Below, in pieces: positions 51,070-64,000 of a stretch of 64,000 nt of DNA (positions are counted from its first letter, which is position 1; every line of letters starts with the position of its first letter). The notes beneath the pieces were generated by a model, which was given only the letters and a program-made list of their open reading frames with translations, had not been told where the DNA came from and did not search any database. This DNA is from Pholiota molesta (Eukaryota; Basidiomycota; Agaricomycetes; Agaricales; Strophariaceae). The stretch covers positions 1 to 64,000 of the forward strand of contig JACGCK010000069.1 of assembly GCA_014925825.1 (NCBI GenBank), given 5' to 3'. A program made the position numbers and the translations under genes.

Positions 51070-52844
51070 CAAACGTAAAGGAGGGCAGAAACCGCAGCCG
51101 GTAACGGAGAGGAAAAAAAACGCATCGATAGCCTCACGACTCACAGCAGATGACCATCCTCATCGGAACACCACTTTAAATCTGGGATCTACCCTTGCCG
51201 CAAGTCCAGCGCACAGTCGTACTCCCGACCGCCCACAGTCCACGTCACTCGTCATGTGGATTTCCCATTCCATCTGCCCTGGACACCGACAGACGCCGTG
51301 GGCACGGGCAAGCGAAGCGATACGTGTGGCAACGAGGGCGTGCAGGCAGGGGTAGATCAAGGGCAGTGGCCAGTGGCGGACGGTGGCTGGTGCAGTAGAT
51401 GGCAGAGATGGGTCTGGGAAATGACAGAGAGGTAAGAAAGGGATGGTACGGCCGCTCGAAACCTAGGAACCGATGTTGGTGGATGCGTCCACCCCTTGGT
51501 GGTGGGAGGTAGTGGTGGTACACTTCACACAGTGTGGTGTTTAATTAATTTAATTCCTCGTCACAATGCAAACATCACAATCGATCCGATGTTTCCCACG
51601 TCCATCCTCTTCCAGCCTCTTCCTGACTGGCACGCTCTCAGCTCGAATTCAGTCTTATCATCCGTGGCTCACACTAAAAGTTAAGATTGGGCTGGGAAAA
51701 CCCGAATCTAAATGGTTCCTTCAGCACGAGCCGTCTTTTGACGTCCGCACTCGTCCACTCGACTCACTGCGTGTGGAGTTGGTTGCGCACGGCTGCTTCA
51801 TCGATCATCATATCAGGTGTGTACATCCCAGTCCTTGTCCATCTATTCCATATATTGCGCATTTGACATCGTCGTTCATTCATTCAGTTAGAGGAACCAA
51901 GCGTCGTACACCTACCCCTCCAAGTTCCAACGTTCAATTCCGCCCCCACATTCAGCACCGCCAACGAAGTGTCCCAGCCGCGTTCCGTCGACACCCCCCG
52001 TCCACTCCGATGCCCACCAACACGCCCGTCCTATACCGCCTCTCAGCTTCACTCGAACCGTTACTCACTCCTAAGGCTCGCTATACAGGCCCTGATCGAC
52101 CCGCGACGGCTACGCTGCGTCGTCGTACCGCTCACATGCTGTGCACGAAGAGCATGAGCTGTATGTTATATACGCGTAGTCGATGCACGGGCCATGAATT
52201 GCAGGGAGTTTGACGCGGATATCATCCGGCCGACGCGCCTCCGCTACCTGGGACTCATTGGCGAGGATGCTGAGGCTGGGGAATGACGAGCAGGCGCTTG
52301 CGGCTGGGGACATGGACATAGCCAAGGGCTTGTTCACCAACGCGGTCCAGGTGCGTTACGCTGACTATTCGTATACTACACCATCTCACGCCCTGCACAA
52401 ATTAATCGGTGCTGATACCGCGTGCCAGTATCAACTGCACCCAGAGCGCGTCGCCGCCGTCGCGAACGCGATTGCATCACCGTTCCCAGCCGCGACCGAC
52501 ATCCAACCAATGACGCGCGTAGAGAAGATTACCAGCCCGGCTCACCTCACCCCGCGGCGTCGTGCCCAGCGAGCCAGGCTAAACCCAGACTGTTCCGCAC
52601 CCCACCGCGTATCTTTTCCCTCGACGGCGTCGCGGCCCTCGGCGCAGGAGCCGATCTCCAATGTTGCCTTGGCAAGCACGTTCTCGGGCGGAGGGCTCGT
52701 GCCCGGCCTGTACATACAGCGCGTTGAACACGGACTGGAGGCAGGGATAAGGGGATGAAAAGGAAAAGCCTGCTTGGGATTTATGCGCGGGGTGAGTCGC
52801 GTTGTTGTGTTTCCCGTCCCATCACAACTGGACATAGCTCATAG
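51070..52844 (+). repeat. Second copy of block 37590-39200, with C2-like fragment and HECT relic 4
   Basis: The sequence is colinear with 37590-39200 (shared words listed there). Between 51650 and 51825 it has an extra coding fragment: LTLKVKIGLGKPESKWFL, then SFDVRTRPLDSLRVELVAHG, reminiscent of a C2-type beta-sandwich, followed by an intron (GTGTGT...TTCAG) and EEPSVVHLPLQVPTF. It ends abruptly at the inverted repeat of the next element. Confidence 0.6.
52120..52844 (+). pseudogene. HECT ligase relic 4 (N-terminal region)
   Basis: 52240-52350 matches the end of exon 1 (GGGACATGGACATAGCCAAGG and the exon 1 donor GGTGCGTTAC). 52480-52700 matches the proline-rich to GGGLV part of exon 4 (ATCACCGTTCCC, ACGCGCGTAGAGAAGATTACCAGCC, GCGGAGGGCTCGTG). 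52800-52840 matches exon 6 around SQLDM (CATCACAACTGGACAT). Frames are broken. It is cut off at 52845 by the mobile element. Confidence 0.65.
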
Positions 52845-52868
52845 CGGCCGGATAGCGGTGTCGTTTGC
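52845..52868 (+). repeat. Left inverted repeat of the 5.1-kb element
   Basis: It starts CGGCCGGATAGC and continues with GGTGTCGTTTGC; the latter 12 bases are perfectly repeated, inverted, at the right end. Confidence 0.6.
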
Positions 52869-53342
52869 AAGAAATTAGAAAATAAATCAAAAATCGCGCA
52901 ATCCAAAAAAGGAAAGAGGAAGAAAGAGGGGGAGAGAAAGAGGGGAATTTCAGTATATGCGCATCCATGCCTCAACGAGCGCACTCTGCTGCCAGACTCT
53001 CCCATCAATCTTGATGGGATGATGGAATCTATTCTAAGATTAATCCAGAATTTTTCCATGAACGGAATAAGATTTCGAGCTGGTTCATTGATACTCGCTT
53101 AATGTCGCTTGAGAACCTGCTATTTATGCGCGATTTTGCTCTTTTATGGCAGTAGGTCCGAGATCAAAGCAGGATACTCGCTTAGGAGAATGTCCAGGAG
53201 CTCAGCGTCAACTCGGCGTGCTCGTGGTAATGGTAAGCATGCTGCAAACAACTTGAATGCCTTCGAGGTAATATGTTCAAAGTAATGTATAAGTAATTCT
53301 AATACTAGCAACGAGTAAAGTAAGTAAGGTGATTATAATATA

Positions 53343-56300
53343 CTATTCCCAACCTTCATTGCATTGTCTCTCTGGCTTCTTCGGATTTCGGCCCTTGCAT
53401 ATCACCTTTCCGCAGTCGCGGCAGGCGTTATGACAATTTGAGACCTTTTGGCTACCTGAGCAACCCGGCCTCGCACATTTGCGGCATGTGCGTGTCTTGC
53501 GCCTCTTGTCTCTAGCGCGCGAGTTCTCCACTTGTTGCATCACACGCTGTCGAGCCGCCGCCTCGGCTGTATTTCGAGCATGCACAGCCGCATGCGCAGG
53601 ATCAGGAATGGCAGGTATTGGCGCGGCCGTGGATGTTGTGTCGAAGGTACCAGCAGGGGATGATGACAAAGGCCCAGCCTGGTGGTGATTATCGAGTGAC
53701 GTGAATGGTGGTGGAAGTGCCGTGGTTGTAGGATTGTAGCCCGAAGTGACTTGATGACATTTCAATAAACCTTGAGGTACCACAGGTGCTGCTGTCGAGC
53801 GTGATGGATCGCGCACGGCTTCGTTGATGGGTCGACGGCTTCGTGATGAGAGTGATAAGGACTGTTTGATACTTAGTGTTGTCATCCAATGTGCATGGTA
53901 TGTCTTCAGCTGTTCGACAAGCTGCAAATGAAGATATGAAAGATATCCTTCAACACGCGGCTGTGTATAAAGGTTGGCCACTGGGAAGGAACAGGATCAA
54001 GAATACGGTTTCCCTCTTCAGAACTAATGGGATCTATAACATGGGCCTGGGTGCTTGTTGTGGAAGCCGTGTCGAGATTATCACCAAACATAACGTCAGC
54101 GATTGCGGTAAAATCATCTTGCTTGGGATCGTCGTCAACAGCCTGGAAAGCAGCATCACAGATCATAGGATCAGATACTGCATGAGAAGCAGGTGGCTCT
54201 GCATTCGAAGGGATAGGTTGAATTGGCACAGTCGATGGCAGCTCTGCAAGCCTGAGATGGCTACGAATGACAACTAGATTGAATGGAGCTGGACCAAACA
54301 TGCTCAGTGGTTTCTTCTTGTAGAGCCCGAGTGTAGCGCCTGGCACCAGTATCTTGGTGACTTCAACAACAGTTCTCGTACGCAGAACCTGAACCCCATC
54401 ACACTCGCTATTCTTGTAGTCATGGGATATCTGACCATATGCAATTAGGCGAGTGTTGTCGTCGTGATAAACGTGAACAGGGAGGCCAGGTTCCAGATGA
54501 TCTGGGAGTGGCTGAGGGATAGGAATATGGGAAATAGCATGATAAAGGATTAATGAGACATAGGCATCTCGCGCCGCATAATCAATCTGCTCCTTGGTTA
54601 ATTCCTCATTTTCCCACTGATTACTGAGACGTTCAGGAACATTTTTGTCGAGACGCTTTCCCAAAACTGCTGCGCAGATATCGGAGAGACTGCATTTGGC
54701 CGTCGAGATAAGATTTCGGTCTTTTGCAAGCTTTGCAAGATCTAAACCACCAACGAATGGCTGTGACTCATCACAGGCTTTTTGAAGATACTGAAGATCC
54801 GCGTTAACGAGTCGGCCAACCTTGAGGACATTTGGATTGCAAAGAAGGAGTTTCAGGTGGTGCGGCAGTTTTTTCGAAGCTAATAGCTTTCCAATCTAGG
54901 AGAAATATGGCAACATATAAGCATACATTAAAGAGAGAATTAAACATGACTTACTTGGAGAATAAAGATGGTGTTTTCATATGCAATTTGAATAACTGCC
55001 GTCTTTCCCCGCGAAATAACACCGCCATATGAAGATGCCTCAATGTTCCATTCGGAATCAAAGCCGACTACGATTTGACCTGCTGAGCCATCGAGGGGTA
55101 AGGCATCAAGGATCTTGCGCATATCATCATCAATAGTGGATAGAGTTGTCTTCACTTGGATTTGAACGTGTGGAGGGATGATAAATGGTTCGAGATGAGC
55201 ATATTTCTCGATAGGCGTGATATTGTTGCGTAGCGAAGGGAATGCCCCTTCGAGAAACTGCTTGTCTGCCATATTGTCTGTGTAAAAAACTGATGGCTGG
55301 TTGTGGCCATATCGGTCCAACGAGACTCGCATTTGCTCAAGGGCATGACGGAACGAGTCGTGTGATTTGCTTGCAACAAGATTGCATACACGTATTTCGC
55401 CCTTTTCGTTAGTGACAGTGAGGAGCCCAGTGAAGATTTGGACGCCGTTAACTTTTGCGAGGTGCTTCGTAACCTAGCAGAACAGATGAGAATAAAATTT
55501 TGGATGAAAAAGCAGGCTGGACAGACCTTATGGCTGTGGTCAACAGCACAGATTTCCGCAGAAAGCATTGACATGTGTTGGTTTAGTTCGCTTTGATGAG
55601 CTTCAATGAAGCGGTCATACATATTTCGCAGCCAATTCATGCTAGGTACAAAACCATGCCTCCCTTTCTCCGAGTTGTCATCATAAGGTAAGAATATTTC
55701 AAACTTCCGCCCCTGCCATTTGGCCATGCCTTTTTGTGGTACGAGTGAATGTAGATACTGCAAGTGTAAAGTATCATGGTACTGAAGGTGTTGAATGCGC
55801 AAAGCATCCGAAAATTGCTTTGGTCCCATGCCGTTTTGGAAGCAGGACCTCATCATTGAGAAGACATCCTTTGAGAGGCCGCTCCGATGGCTTAGACATG
55901 CTGGAAATTCGAGAAAGAGAGCATGAGGGAGGACAGAAAGAATGCGGCTATCGTAGCTACGGAAAGTGACAGTGTGCTTTCTGGACTGCGGGTGCTGGCA
56001 GTCTGGACACCTGTAACGATAACCGATAAGCCAAAAGGAGTTGACTAAGTCAACACAACGGCGAGGGTATCGCAGATGACTGTGCCGACGCAGCTTGGCT
56101 TTGCAGTTCGGGCATGGTATGCCGTCTGGGCAGAGAGCCTCTGGATCCCAAAGGAAGAAGCGCGGGTTGTAGAGAAGCTGCGGCGCTGGAGTCGAACGAT
56201 GTAATAGGAAAAAGGTCGATTTCTGTGGGAACCAAAAGGTTTGATGATCACGATAGAGTGGTGGGAGGCCGTCCGGCCCACGGACACTTGATTCCTTGAC

Positions 56301-57658
56301 CTTTGCCTGGAATTCAGAAGATAGCCACTCAGGAAGAGGGCGGCGAGTACGGCGGCCTGGTCCATCCTCTTCGATGGAATGCTCTGCCGGATCTTCTTCA
56401 TCATCTGAACCCTCTGTATCCTGCCCAACCTCGTCGTTCTCTGCCCCTACACCATCTTCAACCAATCCTATATATTCGTCTTCGTTGGCGCCATCGTCGC
56501 ATTCGAGCTCGATAGGGCATTGCGGGTTTTCACCTGGAATGATGCACATTTCGGGTGCTGGCACCGGGGGTGTATCGCGGAGGGCTGGAGGCGCGGAGAT
56601 CGCGCTGGAGGTGCTTCGTGATGCATGGATATTGGGGGGTTGGGGGGCTGGTGTGCATGTTGTGTGTGAATCCTTTGATAAGGCGACAGAATCCGAAACG
56701 GGCGAGATGGCGCCAGATCGTGAGGGGTGTGTGCATCAGGAGTGATCTAAAGGGAGGGTAATCAGTTCGAAGCAGAACGAAGGGCAGAATAAGATGATAA
56801 CTTACAATGTTTTCATCAAAAATGTCTTCTGGGCTGAGAGCGCCCAGCAACGACGGAGTCGCATTCCGTGTACCAGGTATAGACTAGAAGGAAACACAAT
56901 CAGACAGATAACAAATCGAAGAATTGGGGATAGGACTCACAAAGCGACCAAGCTCAACGAGAACTCAGAACACCATCTGGTGCATTGGAACCGGCTTGTT
57001 TCTTTGGTCGTCCTGGGCCTCGCTTGGTTTCTGGAAGAGCAAGAAAGCCCGGATTCTCAGCAAGCGCTAAGGCCTGTGCTCGCTGTTTGGGGCCTGTTCC
57101 AGGAGGGCGCCCTGGCTTGCGACGTGGAGGTTGAGTTGAAGAGGCGGCATCGCCGTTGGCATCGCCGCCTGAGTCATCGTTGTTGTTCTTGAGCTTGTTG
57201 CTGCTTCCTTTTGGCCGGCCTCGCCCACGCTTCAAACTCGTGCTGTTTGATAAGATGGCATCGCTCGTTGATAAGACGGCATTACTCGGTAGTAATGCTG
57301 CGTGCGCAATTGGCTTGTTGGCGGCTACATCAACACATGGGAGAATATGTCAGAAATAGGATGTGTGATGGGAAGTTCAAGTTAGCTTACCGGTTGTTGA
57401 GCTGGTTGGCCCCTGTGGCTCATTCAAAGACGTGTCCGCGTTCAAAGCAGTCTGGCTGATAAACGAAGAATGCGAGTGCCGAGCTCAGTGACTTGGTGCA
57501 GAGAGCTATAATTAATATGCTCACCTGTTCTCCGAGGCAAGCTTCTCGCTGCCGTATGCCGCTTTCTCCAAATGATCCATTGCCTGATGGGCCTCGGCCG
57601 AATTCCAGAATGCGTCTCCTCCGTAAATGTCGTCGAAATCGTCGTGGCCGTCGTCCAT
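53343..57658 (-). CDS. Chimeric protein: AT-hooks, DUF6729-like region, RNase H-like stretch, 3'-5' exonuclease, Cys-rich tail
   Basis: Minus-strand exons, some approximate: 57525-57658 (acidic start MDDGHDDFDDIYGG), 57391-57455, about 56930-57324 with three AT-hooks (KRGRGRPKG, RRKPGRPPG, KRGPGRPKK), about 56820-56890 (LLGALSPEDIFDEN), then to 55527 with the DUF6729-like part (LCPDGIPCPNCKAKLRRH, RRCVDLVNSFWLIGYRYRCP, SHRSGLSKDVFSMMRSCFQN). The exon 54955-55473 begins after CAVDHSHK and holds YTDNMADKQFLE, then exonuclease motif I (VVGFDSEW). From 54895 come motif II (NADLQYL) and motif III (YAARDAY), as in WRN/RNase D nucleases. A 35-nt intron (53922-53956) would join the Cys-rich tail (TCRKCARPGC, CRDCGKVICKGRNP). 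If it is not spliced, the exonuclease frame stops at 53906. Frame near 56930 is unresolved. Because the gene sits inside inverted repeats, it probably belongs to a mobile element. Confidence 0.65.
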
Positions 57659-57783
57659 AATGAGTCTATGCAAGTACGCGAGTGGATATGCGAGAGAGGA
57701 TACGAAGGCAAGTGGCTGTGTTCTATAGGTCACATGGCGATTTTTTTTCTTAGCTAATTGTTTTTCGTATCGGTATCGGTATC

Positions 57784-57920
57784 GCTCACAAACACCGCTA
57801 GCGAGCCGTTCACTCTGGCTCTGACGCGCGGCTCGTGGCTGTGCAGTATTATATTATATAATTCAATTTTCAAACTCAGAATCAGTATCAGTATCCGCAA
57901 ACGACACCAGTAGCGAGCCA
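57784..57920 (-). repeat. Right end of the 5.1-kb element with two end-repeat copies
   Basis: The inner copy 57784-57808 (GCTCACAAACACCGCTAGCGAG) and outer copy 57897-57920 (GCAAACGACACCAGTAGCGAG) are diverged direct repeats, each preceded by a GTATCGGTATCG/ATCAGTATCAGTATC run. The outer copy is the inverted match of the left end. Confidence 0.6.
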
Positions 57921-59075
57921 AAGAATCAGGGCTCAATTGCGCCCTTTCTCCGCCTTGCTATTGACGGAGATCACAACAAATCAAGACCTCTAGCTGGAGA
58001 CGTAACAACTGTTGCTCTTGTTATGAACTATATGAGCACGGCACAGCACCTGGAGATCGAGCCGCTCTTTTGGGACCTAGTCCCAGCCGTGATGTACAGA
58101 ATCGGAGAGCCTGTCACATTATTTCCAAATCTCCATACTCTGGTGGCATATGAATGTCCACCGCGCTCCCGCACAAACCATTATTTCCATCATATGTTCC
58201 CAGCATTGCGACGTCTAGCCATTGTCGACAAAAACCAGTCTCTCAAAGATACCTCTATCCCCGCCCAATGGGCGACGTTGACCCACCTATCCATCACCAC
58301 TTTAATTATCTCTCTCGATTTCTGGGTCCACTTAACATCGGCTGTTCCTCGTTTACAATGGGCGTACATCTACTTCAATCACCACACTCCATCCGACCCC
58401 GACAATTACGCAAACCCTATCCCACGCATTCTCCCGCAACTGTCCACCTTGTTCATTCGGTCCAGCGACAACAACGGCAACGACTCTCTACTCAGTCCAC
58501 TTTTTGTGGGCCTGCGTTTACCTGCCCTCCGTAATCTTTTTCTGGCTTCTGTCATCGGGCAATGGTGGGACCACAGCGGCATCGCCGATATCCATGCCAT
58601 CCTCCAGTCTGCGCCTGCCCTCCAAAATCTCACCCTGCTGAAATACAACTATCTCTCTCGTGCCGAAATGGATTATGCCAAAGGGACCGCCGCCGCGGTC
58701 GGCGGGGTTGCGCCTATCTGGAGCTGCGTGCCTCACTTAGTTCATCTACAACTCGAACTGTATATAGCGCGCGATTACGGTGACCGTGAAAGCGAGGCAC
58801 ACGCAGAGAAAGAGTTGGCTATCTTCGCGCGCAGTGCCTTCTTTTCCAATAATCGCTGGCTGGACCTCGACAACCCCATGTGCCCCATCAAAACCATCAC
58901 CGTCATCGACCCCGGATTGGCATCGCCCAGTCACCAACCTGAGAGCGACACGCACCGGAAACCACCGAGTATTCGAAAATGTGTCGGGAATGCGTCGAAT
59001 ATTGCTTTGCATGTCATATCGCAACCATTCACTGATTTTGCGGACTCGTGGAAGGAATGGCGTTCGGGAAATTAG
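57921..59075 (+). pseudogene. F-box protein G, N-terminally truncated at the element
   Basis: In-frame homology to other F-box paralogues starts exactly at 57921 (KNQGSIAPFLRLAIDG), immediately after the right end of the 5.1-kb element. It runs open to 59075 (ending WKEWRSGN). The F-box and about 100 residues are missing. The leucine-rich part is well preserved: MNYMSTAQHLEIEPLFWD, FPNLHTLVAYE, LTHLSITTLI, PQLSTLFIRSSD, LPALRNLFLASVIGQWWD and HLVHLQLELYIARD. It is closest to copy I. Without an F-box it could not bind SKP1, although an ATG at 58023 could start a 350-residue product. Confidence 0.8.
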
Positions 59076-59439
59076 AATCATAAAACTATTACCCAGATTT
59101 GTACGTTGTTATCTGCCTAATACTGGGAATTGTTCTGCAGAGACTTGGTATGAAGAGCAGTCAAAGGACTTCAGCAATCATAAATTCTAAATATCAAAAT
59201 AACAGAACATTCACTCCTGCCCGAATTAATCAATAAATAGAATCTCGACGCTTTTGGATCCACCTCCTCCAGCCGATTAGATCTATCCAGCGCTCGACAT
59301 CGCGACGCGGCGCGGGTTTCTGGAGCAGGTAGTCGGGTTTTGAGTAGGTATTGAATAGTTATTGGTCTTCGAAGCTGCAAGGGTCCAAGGGATTGTAAGC
59401 GACTATGGTGGCAATGGAGACGTAGTCTACTTACACCGC
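59076..59439. other. 3' flank of F-box G
   Basis: The first 70 bp resemble the 3' flank of F-box I (TTGTACGTTGTTATCTGCCTAATAC). No gene is seen after that. Confidence 0.35.
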
Positions 59440-60650
59440 GGCCTCGAGCAAAGCTCGAGGAATGAGTTCGTGATCAGGGGGGATGTGGCGAGAGAGAGGT
59501 CTGCGGCGATGAACGGGTTACCACGAACGACGCGGCCGTCAGCGATGATCGAATTCAAGGAACACAATGCGCTTACTCTTGTGCATGAGATCCCAAGTAA
59601 GCACATCGCCTCATCCCTGATCGCCTCTTAGGAGCACCGCACCTCGGGGGCGCGATATGTACCCCCTGCATCACACCTCCCGCGCCGCGCCAGTATATTG
59701 GGAAACACGATATTCAGCGGCTGTCGAACGAACCAATCACATTGAGCTCAGTCAATCCCGCACCGCGTCTACCTGACGCGCTCCCAAAGAATTCGTAAAG
59801 AAGTTGTCGAGGGCCCTCGTTGTGAGTGCCTGGGAACGAATGTCGGTGGCGAAGAGAACGGGCGGTCAGCGTGTCCATTCACAGGATCTAGAAGGCGTCA
59901 ATAACATCTTACGCAATGTACTAAACCACGAACATACCCCTCAGATTCCCTCAGTGCTCCTCCTGCCCAAGCGGTGATCCTCCCGACTGAAGTCCCAGTA
60001 TAGGTCCGGCACAAGCCCTCCGCCCACACTCTCCAAGATGGGGTGCAAGTTTTGCTCCTGCGATGCCGCCAAGGAGAAGAGATGCGCGATGGCGTGTCGG
60101 ATGGCGTGGCGCTGGGATCGACGCTGTGAGGGGAAGCAGGCTGATGGTTTTTTTTCCAAACGCTTAGTCGTTTGGATGTCGGTCACGGGTGTCGGTCACA
60201 GCTGGGAGCGGTGATGACATCGTGTTCGCGACGGCGAAGCGGTTCTGGGGTTGACAAGGGATACTGGCATGCCGTAGCGAGGTTGTGCGATTGTCACCAT
60301 TTGCCGGCGTGAGCAGCGGATCTTCCAAGATACTAAATAAATGAAGCAAGAAAATAAATCGACGTAACACACCTAAACCGAGTTGAAAAACAGCCAATTT
60401 CCCTGTCCCCAACGCCTCATCGTCCATGCTGATGATTCCGAGGCGGCGGAGGCGCGTCAGCCCCACGACATCCGCGTCGAACGCCCGGCACTTCTCCGTT
60501 TCGTGGCTCGTGCATCAGGTGGCTGTTGTGCCCCTTGATTCGGATGACGCTCTCAGTTCGCTGGGTACGTTCGGCGTAGAAGACGCGCTTCGTCTGGACG
60601 CGGTTGAGGATGGAAGTTGAATGAGGCAGGAAGAGGCTACACACCACGAG
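59440..60650 (-). pseudogene. HECT ligase relic 5 (inverted orientation)
   Basis: Minus-strand order: TSILNRVQTKRVF with RTQRTESVIRIKG (exon 1; about 60630-60530), LRRLGIISMDDEALGTGKLAVFQLG ending in the same intron as the real gene (about 60450-60380), the exon 2 start (ATCCGCTGCTCACGCC), MTDIQTTKRLEKK (about 60180), GGGLVPDLYWDF with LGRRSTE (about 60030-59945), and a piece matching the MQEVYIAPQVRC exon (about 59690-59650) through the VTRCLLGIHARE-like donor. Frameshifts and large gaps make it non-functional. Confidence 0.7.
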
Positions 60651-61180
60651 CGCTGGGAGTGAGTAATGGTTCGAGTGAAGTTGAAAGGCAGCATAGGACG
60701 GAGATCTTTGGGGATGAACTGAAGAGTGTCAACGGAGCGCGCCAGTCGGGTGGAAGAGGATGGAGGGAGAGGAACAGACCCGTGGGTGGCGATTCAAGAT
60801 TGTGATGTGTGACGACGAACTTCTTCCCGCCGTCGCGCACCGTGACACGCGGGGTGCCGCGGCGCGAGCCACGCGCTCACAGGCATGATGAGCGCGCGCA
60901 GGTCTTTCTGCACCATGGGCATGCGAGGATGATGTGCATTGGGGATTGAATATTGAATTTTAATACATCCGAGTCTGCACAGGGATGTTGTACCTCTATT
61001 ACTTTGCAAGACCATGCCGATATTGAGTGATCCAGAGTTTACGCAAAATATAGGATCACAGACACACAATACATAGACCTTTGAGTCGTCGGGTGTCAGT
61101 TCAACGCGCACCTGAAAGCAATTTGGACGCACCCTGATCATATTCATTATTCTCATCCCCCTATATATCCCATATCTCGT
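60651..61180. other. Spacer between HECT relic 5 and F-box H
   Basis: No gene is recognised. The minus-strand frame at 60794-61156 has no domain signal. Confidence 0.3.
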
Positions 61181-62945: not shown

Positions 62946-63008
62946 TCAGTCCAATTCTTCGTATTACGCAGATAACAACATACAAATCTTGGTAATAGTC
63001 TCAAAAGT

Positions 63009-64000
63009 CTAATTCCCCCAGCGCCATTCCTTCCAAGAGTCCCCGAGAACAGTCCATGGTCGCGATATAACATGCAAAGCAATATTCGACACATTCCCCG
63101 CGCATTTTTGGATACCCGTTCGTTTCCGGTGCGTCTCGCTCTCGGGTTGATGACTTGATGATCTGTGGTCAATGGCGGTGATTTTTTTGATAGGGCACAT
63201 GGGATTGTTGAGGTCCAGCCAGTGGTTATTGGAAAAGAAGGCACTGTGCACAAAGCTATCCAACTCTTTCTCTGCCTCGCTTTCACTGCGATCACGAGCG
63301 ATAAACAGGTAAAGTTGTAAATAAACTAAATGAGGTGTGCAACTCCAGATGGGCCCACTACCGCAGAGCGCAGCGGCGGGCCCTTGAGCGTAATCTATTT
63401 CGGAAGGAGAGAGTTAGTTGTATTTCCGCAGGGTTAGATTTCTGAGGGCAGGCGTAGACTGGAGGATGGTATGGATATCGATAATGCCACTATGGTTCCA
63501 CCACTCCCTGATAAAAGAACACAAGAAAAGATTGTGGAGGGCAGGTAAATGAAGGCCGACGAAAAGTGGACTGATTAGAGAGTTGTTGCTGTTGTTGTCG
63601 CCGGATCCAATAAACAAGGTGGAAAGTTGCGAGAGGGTACGTTCGATAGGTTTTGTGGATTTGGCTACGTAAATTCGGCTCTGATAGGAGAAATCAACGT
63701 ACATCCATTGTAGACATGGAGCGGTCGATGTCAAGTGAACCCAGAAGTCATGAGAAATGAATTCGACGGTAATGGACAGGTGGGTCAATGTCGACCATTG
63801 GGCGGGGATAGTGCTATCTTCGATTTCCGTGTATATGTCAACAATAGCTAGACGTCGCAGTGCTGAGAAAGTATGACGGAAGTAATGGTCTGCGCGGTAG
63901 TCCAGTAGATATTCGTATGTCACGAGAGTGTGGAGGTTTGGGAAAGTGAGATGGTCTTCGTGCACGGCTGGAACCCGTTCCCAAAATTGCGGATCGATCT
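63009..64000 (-). pseudogene. F-box protein I, 5' end outside window, one nonsense codon
   Basis: The minus strand reads FPNLHTLVTYEYLLDYRADH, LTHLSITVEFISHDFW, QLSTLFIGSGDNN, LPALHNLFLCSFIREWW and NLTLRKYN, then TAA at 63414-63416. In paralogue G the same place reads KYNYLS, so TAT became TAA. Translation continues in the same frame with LSPSEIDYAQG and SCTPHLVYLQL, ending WKEWRWGN at 63009. No other break is visible. The F-box would lie beyond 64000. Confidence 0.75.

Follow-up and report, generated by a model that had tools for sequence, protein, structure and literature searches.

The forward strand of contig JACGCK010000069.1 from the mushroom Pholiota molesta was analysed over its first 64,000 nucleotides (hereafter the window), where a minus-strand gene at 52845-57920 had been proposed in a first-pass annotation to belong to an undescribed type of transposon, with AT-hooks, a DUF6729-like region, an RNase H-fold transposase and an exonuclease fused between inverted repeats. 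We compared this gene with its relatives in the 65.6-Mb assembly (625 contigs) and in public protein records. The gene is part of a genuine multicopy family of DNA transposons from mushroom-forming fungi, in which a Werner (WRN)-type exonuclease sits inside the transposase domain, and tandem arrays of the family contain joints that may well record a copy-out type of end joining. The copy in the window is a dead relic of this family; its features are as follows.

52846-57807, minus strand: decayed transposon copy, delimited by homology to relatives at C389, C596 and C604 and to short copies; the common terminus stops at 57807
57629-57658, minus strand: coding start, MDDGHDDFDD, counterpart of the first exon of the C389 copy
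56957-57349, minus strand: open reading frame with three AT-hook cores, from frame reading and motif search
55611-56249, minus strand: DUF6729 (PF20499; Pfam, E 1.3e-14)
55261-55547, minus strand: first half of the Asp-Asp-Glu (DDE) transposase domain, with the first Asp (VDHSHK), the second Asp (YTDN) and an intron inside, from alignment, structure models and protein-to-window comparison
54530-55100, minus strand: WRN-type 3′-5′ exonuclease domain (PF01612, E 8e-11), approximate limits, with three motifs and an intron inside
53361-53933, minus strand: C-terminal part with Cys-rich tail, matching C389 residues 1460-1615 at 31% identity
53930-53933, minus strand: internal deletion point, which brings the counterparts of C389 residues 1126 and 1460 together, from a tblastn comparison of the intact protein with the window
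52846-52868, plus strand: right end (3′ of the gene), GGCCGGATAGCGGTGTCGTTTGC, resembling, by eye, the right end of the family, GGCTCGATACGGGTGTTGTTGGG, together with the AAGAAAT that follows it; pairs with 57897-57919
57745-57807, plus strand: left end (5′ of the gene), with GTATC repeats and the last letters GCGAGCC; 79-82% identity to short-copy ends at seven places
57872-57919, plus strand: second, outer left-end-type terminus, with GTATC repeats and a GTAGCGAGCC end (by eye); forms the inverted repeat with 52846-52868

The domains that had been read from the window gene are all present. The three AT-hook cores lie at 57209-57226, 57101-57115 and 57002-57016, VDHSH at 55530-55544, YTDN at 55273-55284, the three exonuclease motifs at 55048-55065, 54791-54808 and 54560-54580, and the Cys-rich tail around 53397-53486; the DUF6729 and exonuclease assignments are borne out by the Pfam matches given above. 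Between VDHSHK and YTDN, Pfam also gives a faint match, below threshold, to a MULE transposase domain (E 0.017). When the intact C389 protein is compared with the window by tblastn, residues 221-1126 and 1460-1615 have counterparts, and residues 1127-1459, including the catalytic E1276, have none; upstream, the reading frame is interrupted as well, towards the end of the AT-hook exon and, through a stop, close to where the long exon begins (by eye). With the region of the catalytic Glu deleted, the working mobilisation machine that had been envisaged here is not to be sought in the window copy itself.

The boundaries of the element also differ from those first proposed. The inverted repeat is real, pairing 52846-52868 with 57897-57919 over 23 nt at 78% complementarity, but an unrelated inverted pair of 22 nt and 82% is present within the same 7 kb around the gene; the repeat alone is therefore within chance and proves nothing. 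Family comparison instead sets the ends at 52846 and 57807, and we rejected 52845-57920 as one simple element because the homology common to the family stops at 57807. The 112 bp beyond this terminus (57808-57919) hold the extra left-end-type terminus with its own GTATC repeats; a DNA search of the assembly with this stretch (to 57919) found no match elsewhere in the genome, and it may be left over from an older array or element of related type. The 8 bp adjoining the three candidate ends (CTCATAGC, GTTCACTC and AAAGAATC) differ, so no target duplication is seen at the window copy, which has thus been rearranged or has decayed.

Relatives elsewhere in the assembly provide what the window copy has lost. 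Those at C389, C596 and C604 share 69-78% DNA identity with the window element, a further relative lies at C5, and more distant ones are found at C53, C201 and C2, while short, non-autonomous copies of ~858 bp carry the same ends as the window-type element. Exact 8-bp target duplications flank three of the five full short copies (GTTTTTAT, GATAAATT and CAACTTTG, by eye); another, at C274 (L026 3970), has an exact 8-bp duplication, TTTCTTGT, that stands three extra bases away from the element, and the remaining one has a 7-bp duplication in an A-run (by eye). The single copy at C53 is flanked by a 9-bp duplication, GGTTTAATT (by eye). At C604, C596 and C5 the duplication is unreadable, one or both ends being either not found or cut by the contig end.

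Empty sites complete this picture. The C389 insertion lies in a ~155-bp repeat (L021 3280-3434) with nine other copies of 86-90% identity, and in two of these, at C90 and C179, the flanks are joined with one copy of the duplication and one extra T. Models of the empty site with one duplication copy score 133 and 156 at C90 and C179, respectively, as against 129 and 152 with two copies and 109 and 132 without a duplication. C90 and C179 are paralogous empty sites.

These observations bear directly on whether the gene is simply a host gene for Werner-type DNA repair that lies between chance inverted repeats. Public records that call relatives ‘3′-5′ exonuclease’ or ‘Werner syndrome ATP-dependent helicase-like’ speak for a host gene, as does the fact that the 23-nt repeat is within chance for 7 kb. 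However, related copies occur at different places, not at fixed syntenic ones, with common termini, inverted repeats, duplications, short derivatives and empty sites, and the DDE triad is conserved; the duplication-flanked insertions at several sites already contradict a host gene, and we consider it extremely improbable. The mobile element that had been suspected is thus upheld, and with terminal inverted repeats and target duplications at several insertions it has the defining marks of a terminal-inverted-repeat transposon. A search of viral contigs yielded 34 stretches that fit a pattern, none of which encodes a relative.

The intact C389 copy reveals how the transposase and the exonuclease are combined. 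Its gene, in an exon model drawn by eye from splice signals and frame, has nine exons encoding 1,618 residues, arranged as AT-hooks, DUF6729, D625 (VDHSHK), D695 (YTDN), the exonuclease (~750-925), E1276 (GTNQTEG) and the Cys-rich tail. The exonuclease is therefore not only fused into the transposase polypeptide, as had been predicted, but sits inside the RNase H-fold domain, between the second and third catalytic residues. The distant C201 family keeps the same order, with IDDSHK, FSDD, LDAEW, NVKGDL, YAALDVY and GTNNVEGG.

A homology search returned 105 proteins (E up to 0.001), the named species all being mushroom-forming fungi and a few sequences coming from metagenomes. In an alignment that took in 65 of the 105, the DDE residues are kept in 62 (first D), 63 (second D) and 64 (E) of the 65 rows, and all eight catalytic positions (three DDE, five exonuclease) are kept in 54 of the 59 gap-free rows. 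The exonuclease has the DxE, D and YxxxD residues in a PF01612 fold, as in WRN-type (DEDDy) enzymes. Searching again with a profile stripped of the exonuclease yielded 274 matches, the best 120 of which were examined. Across the 215 proteins counted, 122 contain both transposase halves and the exonuclease, in the same order in every case (122/122), and the other 93 lack one or more parts; none has both halves without the exonuclease, although exonuclease-free relatives are possible, as 154 further matches lay outside the count and the first query contained the exonuclease. The ratio of nonsynonymous to synonymous substitution rates (dN/dS) between C389 and the window, C596 and C604 copies is 0.04-0.17, with transposase and exonuclease segments alike; these are rough values from 10 of 12 comparisons, with dS of 0.37-1.43. 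In one protein, P0165 from Suillus ampliporus, both transposase halves are accompanied by a first exonuclease motif that looks degenerate, FSIKW where others have FDSEW, possibly a natural exonuclease-dead form.

Because conservation is as high at the exonuclease residues as at the transposase ones, and because the domain is present in every both-halves protein examined, the exonuclease is probably part of the machine and likely takes part in transposition. Of the architecture itself, a DDE transposase with a WRN-type exonuclease inside that inserts with 8-bp duplications, we are nearly certain.

Structure models show both an RNase H and a WRN-exonuclease fold. Together with the fold matches, which are RNase H-like, and the aligned D, D and E, they support the earlier suggestion that the VDHSHK-YTDN stretch belongs to an RNase H-fold transposase. 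Among the matches listed, the best transposase match of both models is ISCth4 of the IS256 family, so that the fold of the catalytic domain agrees with an IS256/MULE affiliation, as do the duplications (8 bp in the three arrays described below and in three of the five short copies, and 9 bp at C53). Sequence searches of Pfam and PDB gave no match once the exonuclease was removed from the query (three DDE-only sequences in Pfam). Neither the KDZ transposase profile nor the hAT family is among the Pfam matches, at E up to 1, of the five full mushroom-family proteins P0046, P0002, P0010, P0003 and P0101; hAT and P-element structures lie outside the 50 fold matches listed, a listing that excludes neither.

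Several known systems share part of this design. The mushroom family resembles ISCth4 and IS256 in that its RNase H fold carries an insertion after the second and before the third catalytic residue. In ISCth4, as described in the parts of Kosek et al. (EMBO J 2020; PMC7780238) on which we draw, this insertion is a small helical domain with a C/DxxH motif, whereas the mushroom family has the WRN-type exonuclease and further domains; the mushroom family is also eukaryotic, carries AT-hooks, DUF6729 and the Cys tail, and has no sequence-level match to ISCth4. Mutator-like elements, which the same source names as eukaryotic relatives of IS256, give weak profile matches over the first DDE half (PF10551, E 0.017 and 0.058), but these are below the Pfam cut-off and disappear when the exonuclease is cut out, and C/DxxH is mostly missing. 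KolobokD encodes a 3′-5′ exonuclease as well, but of the DEDDh (TREX/ERI1-like) type and in animals, and KolobokP forms multimers, with copy-out being discussed by its authors from one-sided excision footprints, but these multimers share long terminal direct repeats (both from the relevant parts of PMC9587614). The mushroom duplications, moreover, are of 8-9 bp and are not TTAA. Kolobok target sites are TTAA. KDZ elements are common in mushrooms and Zisupton makes 8-bp duplications, according to PMC12730594, but the KDZ profile is not among the matches of the five proteins named above. Finally, the mushroom protein differs from WRN in having its exonuclease domain embedded in a transposase and no RecQ helicase. 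The open-licence literature, to which our search was directed (Repbase and subscription journals were outside its scope), yielded no description of the mushroom family and no eukaryotic case of flank-derived joints in arrays.

Head-to-tail arrays are present at C389 (two copies), C201 (four) and C2 (four). Read with the gene running from left to right, the C389 array is bounded on either side by CCAATTTT, and its joint holds AATTTT; the C201 array has AACTGGAG on both sides and CTGGAG at three joints; and the C2 array has CCTCCCGG on both sides, the left flank having been noted first and the right flank, fetched later, agreeing with it, and TCCCGG at three joints. In all seven joints of the three arrays (7/7) the spacer thus equals the local 8-bp duplication without its first two bases (nucleotides 3-8 remain), and the missing pair always adjoins the right end. 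The match between spacer and local duplication implies that every array arose where it now lies. Genome-wide pattern searches recovered, for the C201/C2 type, the six joints of those two arrays and no others (control 0 forward, 2 reverse) and, for the C389 type, the C389 joint and two unrelated matches (control 0 and 0). The two unrelated matches were rejected: one at C179 with 3 bp between, which has no terminal sequence around it, and one in the window with 22 bp between, which has no recognisable right end beside it.

Substitutions between the copies within an array are very few, at 1 of 2926 and 0 of 1001 aligned positions at C201 and at 0 of 4847 at C389; the copies are either young or kept alike by recombination. 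The 4.2-kb copies at C2 (L065, L069 and L070), which form a four-copy array themselves, have no exonuclease match and no match to the stretch between the first and second Asp and so look non-autonomous; arrays can therefore form in trans.

The near absence of substitutions speaks for the view that the arrays, which are read from the assembly, are assembly errors or the product of plain unequal crossing-over, and thus uninformative on mechanism. However, crossing-over between the duplications would leave 8 bp at the joint, and we rejected it as their origin; nor would an assembly error place nucleotides 3-8 of the local duplication in the joints at three sites. We regard this explanation as improbable. 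Insertion of a second element beside the first was likewise rejected, as it would add two bases at the outer end, and none are seen.

End-to-end joints with a short, flank-derived spacer, here of 6 bp in all seven cases, are a feature of copy-out/paste-in elements. For ISCth4, the passages on joints in PMC7780238 report spacers of 6-8 bp, with joints of 6 bp integrating best, duplications of 8 bp, and 5 of 8 joints in which the right end was the donor; IS256 joint spacers are 5, 6, 7 and 19 bp. The mushroom family shares with these elements the 8-bp, often A/T-rich duplications, the 6-bp flank-derived spacers and the right end as donor. We favour copy-out-type joining as the explanation of the arrays, and the family probably represents a copy-out type of eukaryotic transposon that has an exonuclease built in. 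A cut would free the 3′ end at the right terminus, and this end would attack the same strand 6 nt outside the left terminus, either on a sister copy or on the same copy. Joining the right-end 3′ strand at this position would give exactly the observed joint of right end, 6 bp and left end, and would correspond to the figure-eight step of copy-out/paste-in. Replication or recombination could then produce circles and tandem copies, the partner being either a sister copy or a circle, and new insertions would duplicate 8 bp.

The same transposon and exonuclease could instead move by ordinary cut-and-paste, as MULE or hAT elements do, with the arrays resulting from break repair after one-ended cutting on sister chromatids and two nucleotides lost each time. 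Cut-and-paste is dominant in eukaryotes, as PMC7780238 states, and single insertions with 8-bp duplications fit both routes; the two bases missing at C389 and C2 are CC and adjoin a CC end, so that slippage could account for their removal. Yet at C201 the lost bases are AA, with no slippage repeat, the three arrays have lost the same number of bases on the same side, and ISCth4, which among the matches listed is the closest transposase of solved structure, makes this joint in vitro. Cut-and-paste with repair is, in our judgement, unlikely, though a serious contender.

The 3′ ends at forks and bubbles are substrates of WRN-type enzymes. In the copy-out scheme, the branched intermediate would have a free 3′ end in the flank, and this is a reason to consider a step in which the exonuclease processes 3′ ends on that intermediate. 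Combining these elements, we propose an undescribed superfamily of eukaryotic DDE transposons with a WRN-type exonuclease in the catalytic domain and IS256-like copy-out via joints of right end, 6 bp and left end, in which the exonuclease would be a fixed part that acts on 3′ ends of the branched copy-out intermediate; for the proposal in this full form we see the chances as evenly balanced.

Several points weigh against the favoured reading of the family. Copy-out is deduced from DNA sequence, and the exonuclease step is a conjecture, as is the trimming of donor or target ends that had been suggested at first. The seven joints come from only three arrays in one assembly, those of one array may all be copied from a single event, and the C201 copies show numerous 1-base gaps relative to one another, which point to read error. 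Joint length is variable in ISCth4 and IS256 (5-8 and 19 bp in the sections of PMC7780238 cited), whereas those of the mushroom family are uniformly 6 bp. ISCth4 may lead the fold matches only as the sole solved structure of its group among those listed; the C/DxxH motif occurs within 40 residues after the second Asp in 3 of 65 rows, and the MULE profile scores 16.0 and 14.3 bits against a cut-off of 27.6. With regard to conservation, strict motif patterns find all six motifs in only 17 of the 105 proteins, and the alignment counts cover 65 of them. We prefer the alignment to the strict patterns because these are narrow (accepting HSHK, for example, but not the HSFK of 25 of 65 rows) and because many gene models are partial.

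Other repeats were also noted. Around the window element there are inverted pairs of 73-86% similarity (52026-52526 with 60152-60701, and 58122-59137 with 62947-63944), which are probably paralogous genes, with a second F-box/leucine-rich-repeat-like gene pair by eye; their order differs from a simple palindrome. A separate repeat, 90% identical over 1.7 kb, is inverted between C29 and C5 (L027 4291-6000 and L031 79-1766).

Eukaryotic DDE transposons are thought to be largely cut-and-paste, and copy-out/paste-in is known from bacteria. The joints described here, each the local duplication minus the same two bases, would be a DNA record of an asymmetric end-to-end joining step, and the arrays make copy-out in a eukaryote directly testable. 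An exonuclease fixed in the catalytic domain of a transposase would, if our reading is true, be a new way of combining cutting and end-processing in one enzyme. It would also explain mushroom genes that are labelled ‘Werner-like’ or ‘3′-5′ exonuclease’ in public records: some of these would be transposases.

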